Source: Candidatus Methanoperedens nitratireducens (GTDB lineage Archaea > Halobacteriota > Methanosarcinia > Methanosarcinales > Methanoperedenaceae). Taken from it: a stretch of DNA of 47,202 nucleotides. Positions 24,185 through 39,924 of this stretch are shown in pieces; the first letter of the stretch is position 1, and the number at the start of each line of letters is the position of its first letter. The stretch is taken from the NCBI RefSeq assembly GCF_000685155.1, contig NZ_JMIY01000001.1:39749-86950 (forward strand). Reading direction: 5' to 3'. The position numbers and the translations under genes are program-made. The notes below the pieces were generated by a model. It was not told where the DNA came from. It did not search any database and saw only the letters and a program-made list of their open reading frames with translations.

Positions 24185-24270
24185 CTGTATACCACTTATT
24201 GTCTATGTATTAATTGAGTAGTATATTAAGATTTATCGTGTTTACTCAGGTTTTTTAGTTTTCAAGTAGA

Positions 24271-24312
24271 ACCGACATAACTATTTATGTATTCAATTAC
24301 TATCTTTTGAAT
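24271..24312 (+). promoter_or_regulatory. Promoter module, copy 1 of a 42-bp duplicated element
   Basis: This element matches 25389-25430 at 40 of 42 positions. It contains the inverted repeat ACATAA-CTAT-TTATGT (24275-24290), which doubles as a TATA-like region. It ends 10 bases before the ATG of the 59-residue gene at 24323. The shared element suggests common regulation with the PP2C gene. Confidence 0.65.
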
Positions 24313-24322
24313 ACAGATCCTT

Positions 24323-24502
24323 ATGGGAACTACAATTACCACCCGCGTACCAAAAGAAATTGCAGCGCTTCGAAAAGAGCTTCTCACCTGTGAGGAATAC
24401 CAGGATTCGCTGGAAGAGCTTGTAAAGGCAGGCTTCAGGATGAGCGATGAAGTATATCTGGCTGCGGTGAGGATGGGGCGAAGAAGAGATTGGGGCTGGT
24501 AA
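24323..24502 (+). CDS. Orphan small VapB-like (ribbon-helix-helix?) protein
   Basis: A 59-residue protein begins MGTTITTRVPKEIAAL, which looks like the N-terminal strand of a ribbon-helix-helix or VapB-type antitoxin. Two predicted helices follow (LLTCEEYQDSLEELVKAG and SDEVYLAAVRMG), then a basic tail RRRDWGW. No VapC toxin gene is next to it; the convergent neighbour is a MazF toxin with its own antitoxin. It sits 10 bases behind a duplicated promoter element. It may be a solitary regulator or antitoxin remnant. Confidence 0.6.
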   Translation: MGTTITTRVPKEIAALRKELLTCEEYQDSLEELVKAGFRMSDEVYLAAVRMGRRRDWGW

Positions 24503-24508
24503 AAAATC

Positions 24509-24859
24509 TTATCTAATAATCCCCAATTGAAAACACAAAGCATCGATTATTTTTTCTTGTAAATCCAAATCTTCGATTTTGCCAACATCTCTAATCATAC
24601 GCCTTTTATCAAGGGTTCTTATTTGATAGCAGAGCACAATAGATTCCTGTTCAAGTCCTCCAGTATTAGCAGGTACTAAAACCTCATTGGGATAAATTCT
24701 TCTTTCTGGTTTTCTTGAGGTTACAGGAAGAATATTCACTACCGGTAAAATCTGATTTATTTCTTCCTCACTTATTACTAGAACAGGTCGAGTCTTTCCC
24801 TGCTCAGAACCCACTACAGGATCGAGATTGGCTAGAAATATATGCCATTTATACTGCAT
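24509..24859 (-). CDS. MazF/PemK-family toxin, predicted endoribonuclease
   Basis: The 116-residue protein matches MazF: KWHIFLANLDPVVGSEQGKTRPVLVIS at the N-terminus (longer than shown by one motif), ILPVTSRKP, VLVPANTGGLEQESIVLCYQIRTLDKRRM. The family cleaves RNA and inhibits growth until neutralised by its antitoxin. It overlaps the preceding gene by 11 bp (antitoxin stop read inside ATGCAGTATAA), typical for a coupled toxin-antitoxin pair. The start is ATG at 24859. Archaeal MazF pairs are often accessory, and its position beside a flavoprotein remnant fits an acquired segment. Confidence 0.88.
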   Translation of the reverse strand: MQYKWHIFLANLDPVVGSEQGKTRPVLVISEEEINQILPVVNILPVTSRKPERRIYPNEVLVPANTGGLEQESIVLCYQIRTLDKRRMIRDVGKIEDLDLQEKIIDALCFQLGIIR

Positions 24860-25100
24860 CTTTTTCTAACCCTTCTAAATCAACTGATCTGAAATCTTCA
24901 GATAGTTCTTTCAGATCTTTAAGGAACAGATCATCCTTTGCAGCTTTTTTTAGTTCTCGGATCTTCTCTTTGAAATCATCCTGCCTTTTTTTAATAATTA
25001 AAATCACCTCAATTGTTTCATTCTCAGGAACTTCAGGAGGAACTTTTATTTTTATCTCATGGTCTTTGGGTATTCTAACAACTTGTTTGATTGCTTCCAA
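24849..25100 (-). CDS. Putative antitoxin partner of MazF
   Basis: An 83-residue protein with a beta-type N-terminus (VVRIPKDHEIKIKVPPEV, VILIIKKR) that could be a MazE/AbrB-like or ribbon DNA-binding region. A charged helical C-terminus (FKEKIRELKKAAKDDLFLKDL) suits toxin binding. The start is TTG at 25100 with GGAGGAA 8 bases upstream. Identity as an antitoxin rests mainly on its 11-bp overlap with mazF; sequence similarity to any specific antitoxin family is weak by eye. Confidence 0.7.
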   Translation of the reverse strand: MEAIKQVVRIPKDHEIKIKVPPEVPENETIEVILIIKKRQDDFKEKIRELKKAAKDDLFLKDLKELSEDFRSVDLEGLEKDAV

Positions 25101-25184
25101 AAAATTATTCCTCCGCTAATTTGCTTTTGCATAACTTCGGTATATGATATCGTTTTCTTAAATATTGGTACACACTCCATATAC

Positions 25185-25352
25185 TTAATTCTTTGTGGAC
25201 TTTAAACAACCATAACATGGCTTAATTTTTAAATCGTAAACATCAAACCATTCAATAGTATGGTCAGATGAAATGTTATCGCAAATTGCAGATAGAATTG
25301 TTGCAGTTACACCACTTTTACGTGGGCTTCCATTGATAAATAGAACTTTCAC
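25185..25352 (-). pseudogene. Remnant of an iron-sulfur flavoprotein / NADPH-dependent FMN reductase
   Basis: From GTG at 25352 the reading frame gives VKVLFINGSPRKSGVTATIL, the flavodoxin-like FMN phosphate-binding start of this family. It ends shortly after IKPCYGCLKS, which in intact iron-sulfur flavoproteins is the beginning of the cluster-binding Cys motif. The stop follows 4 residues later and only about 56 of the expected roughly 190 residues remain. No continuation was found in the bases beyond. The frame runs back into the 42-bp promoter copy, so the ancestral upstream context has also been lost. It is a decayed 5' fragment. Confidence 0.7.
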
Positions 25353-25388
25353 TGTAATCCTTCCATGTAAATGGGACTTGATTTTAGG

Positions 25389-25430
25389 ACTGACATAACT
25401 ATTTATGTATTCAATTACTACCTTTTGAAT
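25389..25430 (+). promoter_or_regulatory. Promoter module, copy 2 of a 42-bp duplicated element
   Basis: This copy differs from 24271-24312 at two positions and keeps the ACATAA-CTAT-TTATGT inverted repeat (25393-25408). It ends 13 bases before the ATG of the PP2C phosphatase gene at 25444, nearly the same spacing as copy 1. Confidence 0.65.
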
Positions 25431-25443
25431 CAAGAGAATAATT

Positions 25444-26184
25444 ATGTTAGCCTACTGCGGTGTAACTGATACAGGGGGAAGGGAGAACAATGAGGATGCC
25501 TATATTACCCTGGCTCTGGAGCACAGGCACCTTTATCTCTTAGCTGTTGCAGATGGATTGGGAGGGCATGCAGCCGGGGAGGTTGCGAGCATGCTTGCAG
25601 TAACAGAACTGGCTGAGACTGTAAAGAAAGATCATGATTCTCAAAAGGCTGAGTCTTTAGAATCCATGAAAGAACTGCTGGCAGCGGGATTCAAAAGGGC
25701 TAATGAGAAGATCTGCTATGAAGCGAAAAACGTGCCTGGTAGATATGGCATGGGAACAACACTGGTGGCAGCGCTGCTAGACGATGAGGGCAGGGGCGTT
25801 GTGGCTAATGTGGGCGACAGCAGGGCTTACAGGATAGGAGAGACAATCAAAAGGATAACTAAAGACCACTCATATGTTCAGGAGCTTGTGGATAGAGGGC
25901 TGATAAGTGAGGAACAGGCATTCAGGCATCCTGCAAAGAACATAGTGACAAGAGTAATGGGCATAGAAAACGCGAACCCGGATTTTTATGAGATAAAGCT
26001 GGGCAGGGATACGCTGCTTCTGTGCTCAGATGGTCTAACCGATGCCATGAGGGATGAGGAGATAAGAGAAGTAGTTTCAGGGACTGTAAGTCTGGAGAAT
26101 AAATGTAAAAATCTGGTTAGCGCTGCTTTGAGCAGGGGTGCGAGGGACAATGTAACCGTTGTTCTGGCATCCAGCATGCAATAA
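25444..26184 (+). CDS. PP2C-family serine/threonine protein phosphatase
   Basis: The 246-residue enzyme has the PPM/PP2C motif series: DTGGRENNEDAY (metal-binding Asp), VADGLGGHAAGEVAS, GTTLVAALL, NVGDSRAYRIG, CSDGLTDAM and RDNVTVVLA. It is a stand-alone bacterial-type PP2C, like the Stp phosphatases that reverse Hanks-type kinase phosphorylation using manganese or magnesium. No kinase gene lies in the window. It is cytoplasmic, without membrane segments. The gene uses the second copy of a duplicated promoter and converges with the SDR gene. Confidence 0.92.
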   Translation: MLAYCGVTDTGGRENNEDAYITLALEHRHLYLLAVADGLGGHAAGEVASMLAVTELAETVKKDHDSQKAESLESMKELLAAGFKRANEKICYEAKNVPGRYGMGTTLVAALLDDEGRGVVANVGDSRAYRIGETIKRITKDHSYVQELVDRGLISEEQAFRHPAKNIVTRVMGIENANPDFYEIKLGRDTLLLCSDGLTDAMRDEEIREVVSGTVSLENKCKNLVSAALSRGARDNVTVVLASSMQ

Positions 26185-26206
26185 GACCAGGAAGCTAACG
26201 CACCCT

Positions 26207-26896
26207 TCAATAAAGCTCTATAGACTGACCGGGGTAATACTTCTCCGGATGGGTGCAGATATCGGCAACTCTCTCAACAATTTCTTCCGGCTTGTGATAT
26301 GCTCTCTCTCCTGGAAACATTCTATTAAACATTCCTATATCAATACTTCCAGGACATAGAGCAATTATTTTAATCTTCTTGCTAACCTCCCTTGAGGCAG
26401 CCTCAGTAAGACCGATAACCGCAAATTTTGATGCACTGTATGCACTTAACACAGGGATGCCAGTTTTCCCTGCACCTGAGGAAATATTGACCACCAGACC
26501 ACCATGTTTTTCCATTTCAGGAATGACATGCTTCATATAAAGAAAAACACCTTTTACATTCACATCCATTACTTCCTCAAATTCTTCCACCCTTGTTTCC
26601 CGTAGATATTTCCTTAACCCGATTCCTGCGTTATTGATCAGCACATCGACCCTCCCTAATTCATTAATGGTATTATTGATGACCTTTCTCACATCATCTT
26701 CTCTGGTAACATCCCCGCTGATAAAAATCGCCCTCCCACCTTCATCGTTTATCTCTTTAGAGACCTTTTCAATATCTTCCTCAGTCCTTGCGGTTACAAC
26801 GATATTTGCTCCTTCTCTGCCCAGCCTTTTAGCAATATATCTTCCCAATCCTCTTCCGCTTCCGGTAACGATTATAGTCTTGTTTTCAAGTCTCAT
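26207..26896 (-). CDS. Short-chain dehydrogenase/reductase
   Basis: The 229-residue protein is a classical SDR: TGSGRGLGRYIAK for NAD(P) binding near residue 11, NNAGIG around 90, catalytic Ser in VNISSGAG and YSASKFA with the Tyr-x3-Lys pair near 150. Substrate cannot be predicted. An ARTEED stretch after the second strand suggests NADPH preference. The start is ATG with AGGGGAG upstream. It is divergent from the threonine-dehydrogenase-like gene and may share regulation through the TATA-containing gap near 26940. Confidence 0.88.
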   Translation of the reverse strand: MRLENKTIIVTGSGRGLGRYIAKRLGREGANIVVTARTEEDIEKVSKEINDEGGRAIFISGDVTREDDVRKVINNTINELGRVDVLINNAGIGLRKYLRETRVEEFEEVMDVNVKGVFLYMKHVIPEMEKHGGLVVNISSGAGKTGIPVLSAYSASKFAVIGLTEAASREVSKKIKIIALCPGSIDIGMFNRMFPGERAYHKPEEIVERVADICTHPEKYYPGQSIELY

Positions 26897-29180: not shown

Positions 29181-30254
29181 CTATGAATACACTATTTTCC
29201 CTCCATCATAACCGAGAACAGTGACTATCGGCGCAAGGCTCACTAATAACGCTAAATAAGTGTAATAATTCAAGTCTACCTCTGTGAGTATATCCGTATA
29301 CAGGGTTCGCAACATGAAAGATACAGTGGTAACGACGATCAGTGCGATAGCAAATATTATTTTCCGGGCAAAGACTTTAGTCATTTTCTCTGCATAAGTG
29401 ACTTTCCAGCTAAAAAGACCTGAAAGTGTGGCCAGAGGAGCAGTTAACAATCCAAGTACAAGTATGTAGTATGATGCTATTTCAAAAGTGATTTCTTCCG
29501 TAAAAATATACAGGAATGCTAACAGGGGAATAGCAACTGAGTACGCTATGGAAAAATGAACAAGTATCGGATGGAGGTGCAGGCCCTCTATTCTCTGCAC
29601 AAGTCTTTGTCTGAACGTCTTCTCCGGGCTCAACTCCCCGACGATATGGAACTTTACCAGTACCTCTTCACCATGCGTCGCTCTTAGCATGTTCTCTGTC
29701 AGGTCAGTTCCTGCAAAGTGACTGCCTGCATGAATCCCATCTCTCCAGAGGCTGCTGTTTGAAACATCGTACACTTTTCCTTTAAATGCTGCGTATGCAG
29801 GCCTTCCTTCCTTTCCGTCAAACTCTCTTAATTCCATGGCTGTGAAATGCCTCTCCTCCCCGAGCTTGCGCGCTATGGAATAGCGAATGGTACGCGTGAG
29901 CAGGTTGCTATCCACCTTTCCTTTGATAAGATAATCCTGTGCGCCCCTGCGTACTGCATTGATTGCAAATGTCTCATCATCAAGGCCTGTCAGTACCACA
30001 ATAGGCACTTCTGGTGCCTGGGCTTGCGTCCTGGTAAAAGTATCAAAACCACGGGGGCTATCCGGGAGGATGAGATCCAGCAGGACAACATCAACCCCTC
30101 CCATGGTAATGCGCTCAAGTCCGCTTGAGAGCCTGTCTTTCCATTCAATATCGAACGAGATATTCTTTGCTTCGATCAGCATTTCCTTTATCAGTCTGGC
30201 ATCGCCCGGGTTATCTTCGATCAGGAGTACATTAACGTGCTCCATTTCATTCAC
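29181..30254 (-). CDS. Receiver domain fused to cytochrome b5-like and membrane (DUF2231-like) domains
   Basis: The 357-residue protein has three parts. Residues 6-130 are a response-regulator receiver with acidic pair Glu13-Asp14, phospho-acceptor Asp60 ([11 protein letters not shown]), Thr89 and Lys111. Residues 136-207 match the prokaryotic cytochrome b5-like domain ([36 protein letters not shown]), with His175, His179 and His194 as candidate haem ligands. Residues 213-355 hold about four transmembrane helices resembling DUF2231 ([20 protein letters not shown]). The b5-DUF2231 combination is known; the N-terminal receiver is unusual. It overlaps the upstream receiver gene by 8 bp and probably acts as a phosphorylation- or redox-controlled membrane output. 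Confidence 0.85.
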
Positions 30255-39400: not shown

Positions 39401-39924
39401 AATCACGGCGCGATATTCTGTTTCACGAAAGAGAAGAACTAATGGTTCGAATCAATAAATGCGAGGAGATGAAGAAAGATACGTTTATGAGCGCCTTTAA
39501 CGGGGTGAATGAGCATTTTAAACAGATCTTCGCTGAGCTATCAGACGGAAGCGGCGAACTTTTCCTTGAGAGCCCTTCTGACCCTTTCTCAGGCGGGATG
39601 ACCATAAAGGCACAGCCATCTGAGAAGACCCTGCAGCGGCTTGAGGCCATGTCAGGCGGAGAGAAAAGCCTGACAGCACTATCACTCCTTTTCGCTATCC
39701 AGCAGCACAGGCCAGCCCCTTTTTATGCTTTTGATGAGATCGATATGTTCCTTGATGGCGTGAATGCAGAGAGGGTAGCAAAGCGCATACAGAAATCCGC
39801 TGGCAGAGCCCAGTTCATTGTAGTTTCACTGCGAAAGCCCATGATTGAGGCTGCTAAAAGAACGATAGGCGTTGCCATGCAGGAGAATAATATATCGAGC
39901 ATAACAGGGATACAGTTGAACTGA
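36415..39924 (+). CDS. smc: Chromosome segregation ATPase SMC
   Basis: The 1169-residue protein is a full-length SMC: N-terminal Walker A GPNGSGKSNIID (about 33-44), two long coiled coils (about 165-500 and 665-1000), a central hinge (about 515-650, IYGTIAELGKVDKKYSVALE with GRVTFLPL) and a C-terminal head with signature MSGGEKSLTALSLLFAI and Walker B FYAFDEIDMFLDGVN. It forms a homodimeric ring that organises and segregates chromosomes, normally with ScpA and ScpB. No ScpA/ScpB genes follow; thiI does. The start is GTG at 36415. The upstream partner is a small coiled-coil gene. Confidence 0.96.
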   Translation: MHIKEIELQNFKSFGKKVRIPFFDDFTTISGPNGSGKSNIIDGILFALGLSNSRIMRAEKLTDLIFNADSGRKNFAQVTIHFDNRDREMPVDVDEVTITRKVRQTESGYYSYYYFNDTPVSLTDVHDYLSRAKITPEGYNVVMQGDVTRIIEMTPTERRKIIDEIAGVAEFDEKKEQAISELDVVRDRIERVDIILAEVDEQLTKLKQERDQALKYQSLRDERRKYEGYILLARLKDAKNELDKITHEIKDRETRKEELIKQADERQQELKRVEDKLSDLNSLIIQKGEGEQIAIKKEIEAIKGEISRCNSTIELAENEINDIESQRRKAFLDIDSTQAKVAQLSDKLGEENLRKDTISSELDDRKTQLLMVRSKIAEIDAEFAGTRDKLAESKQRLETLKNEKNELMREGDRLLDAIRRKSSEARDIELEIKDSISKIESADLDASNARAQIEEIAVKKQELVGDTVDIEKNRAQMKSVIADLESSLRVFQQEYARSEALIKAAAEISYSQPVESILRAKKNRELPGIYGTIAELGKVDKKYSVALEIAAGARMQSVVVDNDEDAARAINYLKERRLGRVTFLPLNKMESMPSLSKMDREGIINYAINLVDYDKKFSTAFWYIFRDTLVLDNLNTARRLMGSKRLVTLEGELIEKAGAMTGGSIRSKLSFASGEEDNLKKIAEKIAEYEGRRRSAVNKLEKLEDHLAQIKSESAGFDNEITRLQMQMAEIKSRGTRLTELIETRKTQITEIEDASIEIKKRMDGIEEDKRAKDEEISTLLEDIEKIEELLSGSEVPLLGKKASKIEEEIDRLEGRLRDIEAGINAIVLDRKYAQARIDDTKERLSEFDKKKEGHREKINALREQIKTLEADLKVKNMREKELGGELLELQNKRAQVQKDHGIIKEGLEEIQRLVGDMERSLLALYSTKDALTEQMIALDNEIADRGLNRDEEVPSSESIASRISALARAMDKLEPVNMRAIDEYSEVEKRQKDLKSRRDILFHEREELMVRINKCEEMKKDTFMSAFNGVNEHFKQIFAELSDGSGELFLESPSDPFSGGMTIKAQPSEKTLQRLEAMSGGEKSLTALSLLFAIQQHRPAPFYAFDEIDMFLDGVNAERVAKRIQKSAGRAQFIVVSLRKPMIEAAKRTIGVAMQENNISSITGIQLN

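Follow-up and report, generated by a model that had tools for sequence, protein, structure and literature searches.

Two nearly identical boxes in the genome of Candidatus Methanoperedens nitratireducens precede non-homologous genes, raising the question of what the box is and how a phosphatase gene came to lie behind it. The window, the whole stretch of DNA analysed, spans 47,202 nt (positions 39,749 to 86,950 of contig NZ_JMIY01000001.1). G000 denotes the source genome (3.2 Mb), and other G numbers denote comparison genomes.

A 51-bp repeat precedes a small ORF and a phosphatase gene

The segment between the boxes and its immediate neighbours comprise the following features:

24267..24317, +: 51-bp repeat copy 1, preceding the vapB::vapC remnant
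24323..24502, +: 59-aa ORF, read as what an internal deletion left of vapBC: VapB residues 1-13 joined in frame to VapC residues 122-163
24509..24859, −: MazF/PemK-type toxin gene (Pfam E 7.4e-27)
24849..25100, −: mazE-like antitoxin partner gene, named by position, with fragments in G040 and G015
25185..25361, −: NADPH-dependent FMN reductase, N-terminal fragment (profile positions 1-50 of 152)
25385..25435, +: 51-bp repeat copy 2, preceding PP2C; homology to the G040 PP2C locus also starts at 25385
25444..26184, +: PP2C-type protein phosphatase, 246 aa, with an intact frame and a single match in the genome
26207..26896, −: SDR gene, convergent with PP2C in this genome; in G007 and G015 the SDR gene is convergent with vapB remnants

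An earlier note on this DNA, made from the letters alone, had described a 42-bp box occurring twice about 1.1 kb apart with two differences, each copy 10-13 bases before a start codon. Comparison of the cores (24271-24312 and 25389-25430) bears this out, with 2 differences, a spacing of 1,118 bp and ATG codons at 24323 and 25444, 10 and 13 nt past the box ends. The repeat itself is longer, extending over 51 bp with 46/51 positions identical; outside it, agreement drops to 6/30 positions on the left and 5/30 on the right. The palindrome ACATAA-CTAT-TTATGT, also correctly reported as kept, is perfect in both copies. Allowing ≤2 mismatches, a shuffled window is expected to hold this 16-mer 0.06 times; the real one has four matches, corresponding to the two sites read on both strands.

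The genome search proposed in that note returned two copies in G000, both gene-linked, and no third copy in the 3.2-Mb genome with a 21-mer (≤3 mismatches), a 36-mer or a 38-mer. A sigma-70 scan gave 4 sites against 5.3 expected, under a bacterial-type model that is not meaningful in an archaeon. The mazEF pair and flavoprotein fragment said to lie between the copies are present as a MazF/PemK toxin gene, its partner and a fragment covering the initial third of an FMN reductase. Elsewhere in the window, at 29181-30254 (−), one protein combines a response-regulator receiver domain, a cytochrome b5-like domain and a DUF2231 membrane domain, which we take to be an unusual combination.

The element recurs at one family of toxin-antitoxin loci

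Scanning 31 genomes of the genus with a 36-mer revealed 8 places in 7 genomes, and scanning 185 genomes of the order with a 38-mer revealed 9 places in 8 genomes, with 0 matches for the reversed control in each case. Pooling both scans (G017 from the 36-mer alone, G003 and G036 from the 38-mer alone) yields ten complete copies. Eight are located at vapBC genes or their remnants (G003, G011, G012, G016, G017, G021, G036 and copy 1 of G000) and two at PP2C (copy 2 of G000, and G040). G023 provides a ninth toxin-antitoxin (TA) place, where a partial element precedes a vapC tail; its full 38-bp score of 22 is at shuffle level, and it was met at a stringency where controls also match and counted because it abuts the vapC tail.

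Matching a 21-mer with 3 mismatches across 40 genomes, G000 included, gave 5 places outside G000 against 6 for the reversed control, which is noise. Three of these matches (G024, G017:C73 and G004:C10) were dropped, as the rest of the element is absent; the remaining two are G021 (complete) and G023 (partial). An exact-match contig scan hit twice, once in the G040 contig and once, over 21 bp, in a Candidatus Saelkia contig; the latter hit was rejected, with neither the rest of the element nor vapBC beside it.

Approached from the genes, the 38-bp element precedes all six close full-length vapB genes found (at least 73% mutual identity; G003, G011, G012, G016, G021 and G036), in a search covering the 31 genus genomes, with G036, from another family, met through its vapC tail. 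Five scored loci of distant vapB homologues (L041-L044, L047) reach 21-24/38, compared with 20-25 in their own shuffles. Five close vapB copies that are truncated at the N-terminus (G005, G007, G009, G015 and G043; 20-24/38) lack the element, and a sixth truncated copy (G006) is cut off by a contig end. Another vapB subfamily (L047 and L050, in G004 and G022) shares its own pre-start motif, GTATACGTTATAATAAA, and each subfamily may thus carry its own promoter.

The family is composed of a UPF0175 antitoxin gene (Pfam E 3e-14) followed by an overlapping DUF3368/PIN-like gene, whose DUF3368 matches (E 1.6e-5 to ~2e-5) fall just short of the Pfam cut-off and whose PIN matches are weak (E ~2e-4 to 4e-4). 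The pair was assigned by Pfam in G012 and G016 and by alignment to these in G003 and G036. The ribbon-helix-helix start of VapB is matched weakly, by RHH_1 in 3/5 members (best E 0.031) and by RelB_DinJ (E 0.029), and DUF6290 gives weak matches in all five (best E 0.0086). No solved structure is similar by sequence to VapB (best E 0.42) or to VapC (to E 0.1).

The conserved element has the form of a core promoter

Within and around the repeat, the following sequence features were delineated:

24278..24315, +: 38-bp core element (putative COG2886-PIN operon promoter), copy 1
25396..25433, +: 38-bp core element, copy 2; TA consensus kept to 25430 with one change
24282..24289, +: TATA-box-like TATTTATG, copy 1, read from sequence
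25400..25407, +: TATA-box-like TATTTATG, copy 2, read from sequence
24275..24290, no strand: ACATAA-CTAT-TTATGT palindrome, copy 1, unconserved in TA promoters
25393..25408, no strand: ACATAA-CTAT-TTATGT palindrome, copy 2
24289..24314, no strand: GTATTCAA-N10-TTGAATAC inverted repeat, copy 1, candidate operator, perfect
25407..25432, no strand: GTATTCAA-N10-TTGAATAC inverted repeat, copy 2, with 2/8 mismatched

Pairwise identity of the element among six vapB loci (15 pairs) is 0.79-1.00, compared with 0.42-0.84 at third codon positions, which fall below the element in 15/15 pairs and are ≤0.51 in 11; the 40 bp upstream range from 0.20 to 0.80. The element extends from the TATA-like box to the start expected from typical archaeal spacing, presumably at ~24311-24313 and ~25429-25431. 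Its distance to the start codon is variable, differing among G003, G036 and G012, and the conserved part is therefore not a ribosome-binding site. The repeat is very probably the core promoter of a COG2886(UPF0175)-PIN(DUF3368) VapBC-type operon, as judged from its position and constraint.

ACATAA-CTAT-TTATGT, the palindrome named in the earlier note, is not conserved in the family: its arms show 0 mismatches only in both G000 copies and G040, hence in 3/10 complete copies, and 1-4 of 6 mismatches in the other seven. Among shuffled versions of the 42-mer, 19% contain 6-bp arms. The GTATTCAA-N10-TTGAATAC inverted repeat is more widely conserved, with 0-2 of 8 positions mismatched in 10/10 complete copies, and 8-bp arms arise in 1.5% of shuffles. 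This candidate operator probably serves for autorepression. Of the two copies, copy 2 has diverged further, with an identity to TA promoters of 0.76-0.87 compared with 0.84-0.95 for copy 1.

Copy 1 heads a deleted vapBC operon, one of several broken loci

The 59-aa ORF behind copy 1 aligns in two parts: residues 1-13 match VapB residues 1-13 of G003 at 10/13 positions, and residues 13-54 match VapC residues 122-163 at 36/42. Pfam returns no UPF0175 match for the ORF, in which VapB residues 1-13 alone remain, and a DUF3368 match (E 0.016) short of the cut-off, with most of the PIN toxin gone. The 24.3-kb locus does carry the 38-bp element typical of close vapB family members. Judged by these alignments, the ORF is the remnant of an internally deleted vapBC operon, and the orphan antitoxin-like gene of the earlier note is instead 13 VapB codons fused to the end of VapC. 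The annotation is corrected accordingly, from a small 'antitoxin' to a two-gene deletion remnant.

Both genes are full length at four of the nine element-bearing TA loci (G003, G012, G016 and G036), and the other five are broken (G000 copy 1, G011, G017, G021 and, counted here, G023). The element is joined to VapB residue 36 in G017, where the start of VapC alone is kept; a truncated element is joined to VapC near residue 101 in G023; VapC is lost past residue 111-112 in G011; and in G021 (L025, G021:C41:4577) the vapB start reads ATT where G003 has ATG, with no vapC found near it. The G017 deletion (L024, G017:C43:58675) creates a new in-frame ATG, yielding an antitoxin that would lack the N-terminal, possibly DNA-binding, part. 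In G007, G015 and G023 (L103, L104 and L074), the vapB or vapC remnant is immediately preceded by the frames of a second PIN-like TA pair, named by eye and from weak matches, an arrangement that resembles a stack of decaying TA modules. It is conceivable, though rather unlikely, that deletions of toxin and antitoxin that spare the promoter are recurrent, that the unrepressed promoters left in this way are taken by host genes such as PP2C, and that TA turnover is a steady source of new regulation in these archaea.

The element and the PP2C gene meet within a few bases

PP2C is present in 4 of the 31 genus genomes, with the element in G000 and G040 and without it in G010 and G013, whose PP2C loci score 22 and 23 of 38, at shuffle level; a second G013 PP2C (33% identical) was left aside. 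In G010 the gene starts 3 nt past cysS and is followed by a Ser/Thr kinase gene, and in G013 a Ser/Thr kinase gene follows PP2C. No kinase gene lies beside PP2C in G000 or G040; elsewhere in these genomes, one kinase scores above the Pfam cut-off in G000 and none in G040.

The PP2C proteins of G000 and G040, the latter a Ca. Methanoperedens MAG, are 93% identical, and the genes differ at 37/723 nt, comprising 17 synonymous and 16 non-synonymous codons, so that the phosphatase is not under strong constraint. Between the left edge of the repeat and the PP2C start, 2 of 59 bp differ. Homology between G000 and G040 starts at 25385, the left edge of the repeat, while alignment to the G013 PP2C starts at 25434, right past the element, and to the G010 PP2C at 25441; the element and PP2C pieces thus meet within a few bases. 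The PP2C leaders of G000 and G013 match weakly (8/13).

The G040 locus has undergone changes of its own. Near the PP2C end (L106, G040:C39, 4667-4762; window 26156-26805), ~650 bp are lost and the PP2C end is replaced, and of the SDR gene only the first 32 codons remain. A 75-aa ORF lying upstream of PP2C in G040 (L031, 3596-3823, −) gives a weak GmtY recombinase match (E 0.0035), far from the cut-off.

The order in G015 is a mazE-like remnant, a second TA pair, a vapB remnant and SDR, in the same orientation as mazE, element-PP2C and SDR in G000, and in G007 a vapB remnant and SDR lie tail to tail. No SDR neighbour occurs in the stretches examined at the other 12 of 14 vapBC-family loci; G009 has distant SDR homologues only, >2 kb away. 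A mazE-like gene lies ~1.9 kb from vapB in G017. Taken together, these arrangements give moderate support to the view that PP2C occupies a place once held by vapBC genes. Few genomes lie behind this shared slot, since SDR adjoins vapB in 2/14 loci and the G015 slot also holds a second TA pair.

Probable promoter capture by PP2C and its alternatives

We consider it probable that PP2C captured its promoter from a decaying TA module. At the level of sequence, a homologous and constrained element precedes non-homologous genes, vapB and PP2C, with copy 1 heading a deleted vapBC and copy 2 standing before PP2C; promoter activity, repression and the order of events are inferred. Against this reading stand its restriction to a single event in 2 genomes and the divergence of copy 2, which carries 2/8 operator mismatches and departs from the TA consensus past 25430. 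Many assemblies among the relatives are fragmented, and misassembly could underlie single junctions.

Rather unlikely, by our estimate, is that copy 2 arose as a local duplication of copy 1 into an existing PP2C promoter region, with no vapBC deletion there. The two copies do have ~12 bp of left flank in common (10/12), absent from other TA promoters, but vapB remnants occupy the PP2C position in G015 and G007, and the duplication must predate the G000-G040 split, yet G040 yielded copy 2 only. The earlier note had also considered that DNA was inserted. Insertion of the 24.3-25.4 kb segment with target duplication, or its transposition as a unit between direct repeats, would account for the repeats flanking a TA pair and a gene fragment, and G040 has merely an 88-bp piece of the segment beside its element. 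However, a mazE piece lies on the same side in G040 without copy 1; the repeat copies differ at 5/51 positions; and copy 1, like the element in other genomes, leads in native register into a vapB start, so that it is not an insertion scar. We regard this scenario as very improbable. The repeat is AT-rich and palindromic, with arms of a length common in shuffles, as a simple repeat, MITE or palindromic spacer free of any gene link would be; yet all ten complete copies lie at TA genes, TA remnants or PP2C, IMG/VR viral contigs contain no exact match to a 27-base pattern, and G000 has two copies rather than the many gene-free ones of a dispersed repeat, leaving next to no likelihood for such an origin.

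The small regulon proposed in the earlier note would have a VapB-type repressor bind both sites and couple the phosphatase to the TA state. In its favour, an inverted repeat is kept downstream of the TATA box and ahead of the expected start, and antitoxins such as MqsA can control other genes (PMC4803016). Against it, VapB homologues reach at most 40% identity in G000 (3 matches) and 38% in G040, and the locus of the nearest G000 homologue scores 24/38 for the element compared with 21-23 in five shuffles. The best near-full-length VapC match in G000 by score is 34% identical, others being 38% and 40%. A working regulon is improbable, given that only two sites were found in G000, that the operator of copy 2 is the more degraded and that no close repressor was found. 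Of the earlier proposal, then, the promoter stands as very probable, with one copy acquired by PP2C, and the shared regulon goes unsupported.

Under promoter capture, the vapBC operon would have lost its coding part in the common ancestor of G000 and G040, and PP2C, leaving its kinase partner, would have landed directly behind the orphaned promoter. PP2C would now be transcribed from the captured promoter and, with the cognate VapB gone, that promoter would probably be unrepressed. The parts are ordinary and their combination is uncommon: a TA core promoter of a known kind, left by decay, now upstream of a phosphatase gene. If the reading is true, it identifies for an archaeon where a captured promoter came from, which gene took it over and where the two were joined, and a decaying TA module can leave behind its control region and not a protein. 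The 38-bp element would also serve as a marker for following TA decay and promoter reuse across the genus. Literature searches on toxin-antitoxin exaptation or remnants returned nothing on promoter takeover, judged by title and the start of the abstract, and those on promoter capture with toxin-antitoxin returned Drosophila only.

Comparison with known systems

Mobile promoters and promoter reuse in prokaryotes have reportedly been described by Nijveen in 2012 and van Passel in 2014. As in those systems, a homologous promoter here precedes unrelated genes; unlike them, the donor can be named, a decaying TA operon, and one capture only is seen.

Makarova et al. 2009 (PMC2701414) list the pairing of COG2886 with PIN, which is also given for Geobacillus (PMC6929052) as COG2886 (UPF0175)-PIN. 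The relatives of the remnant share this architecture, with UPF0175 first, a PIN/DUF3368-type gene second and the genes overlapping, whereas the window locus is mostly deleted, the promoter and the 59-aa fusion surviving. The antitoxin MqsA resembles the present case in that a TA-type candidate operator stands before a non-TA gene, and differs in that the G000 search gave no close cognate antitoxin. Solo TA genes can be exapted, as stated in a reviewer reply within PMC2701414; here, too, a product of TA decay would be reused, but it is the control region, and not the protein.
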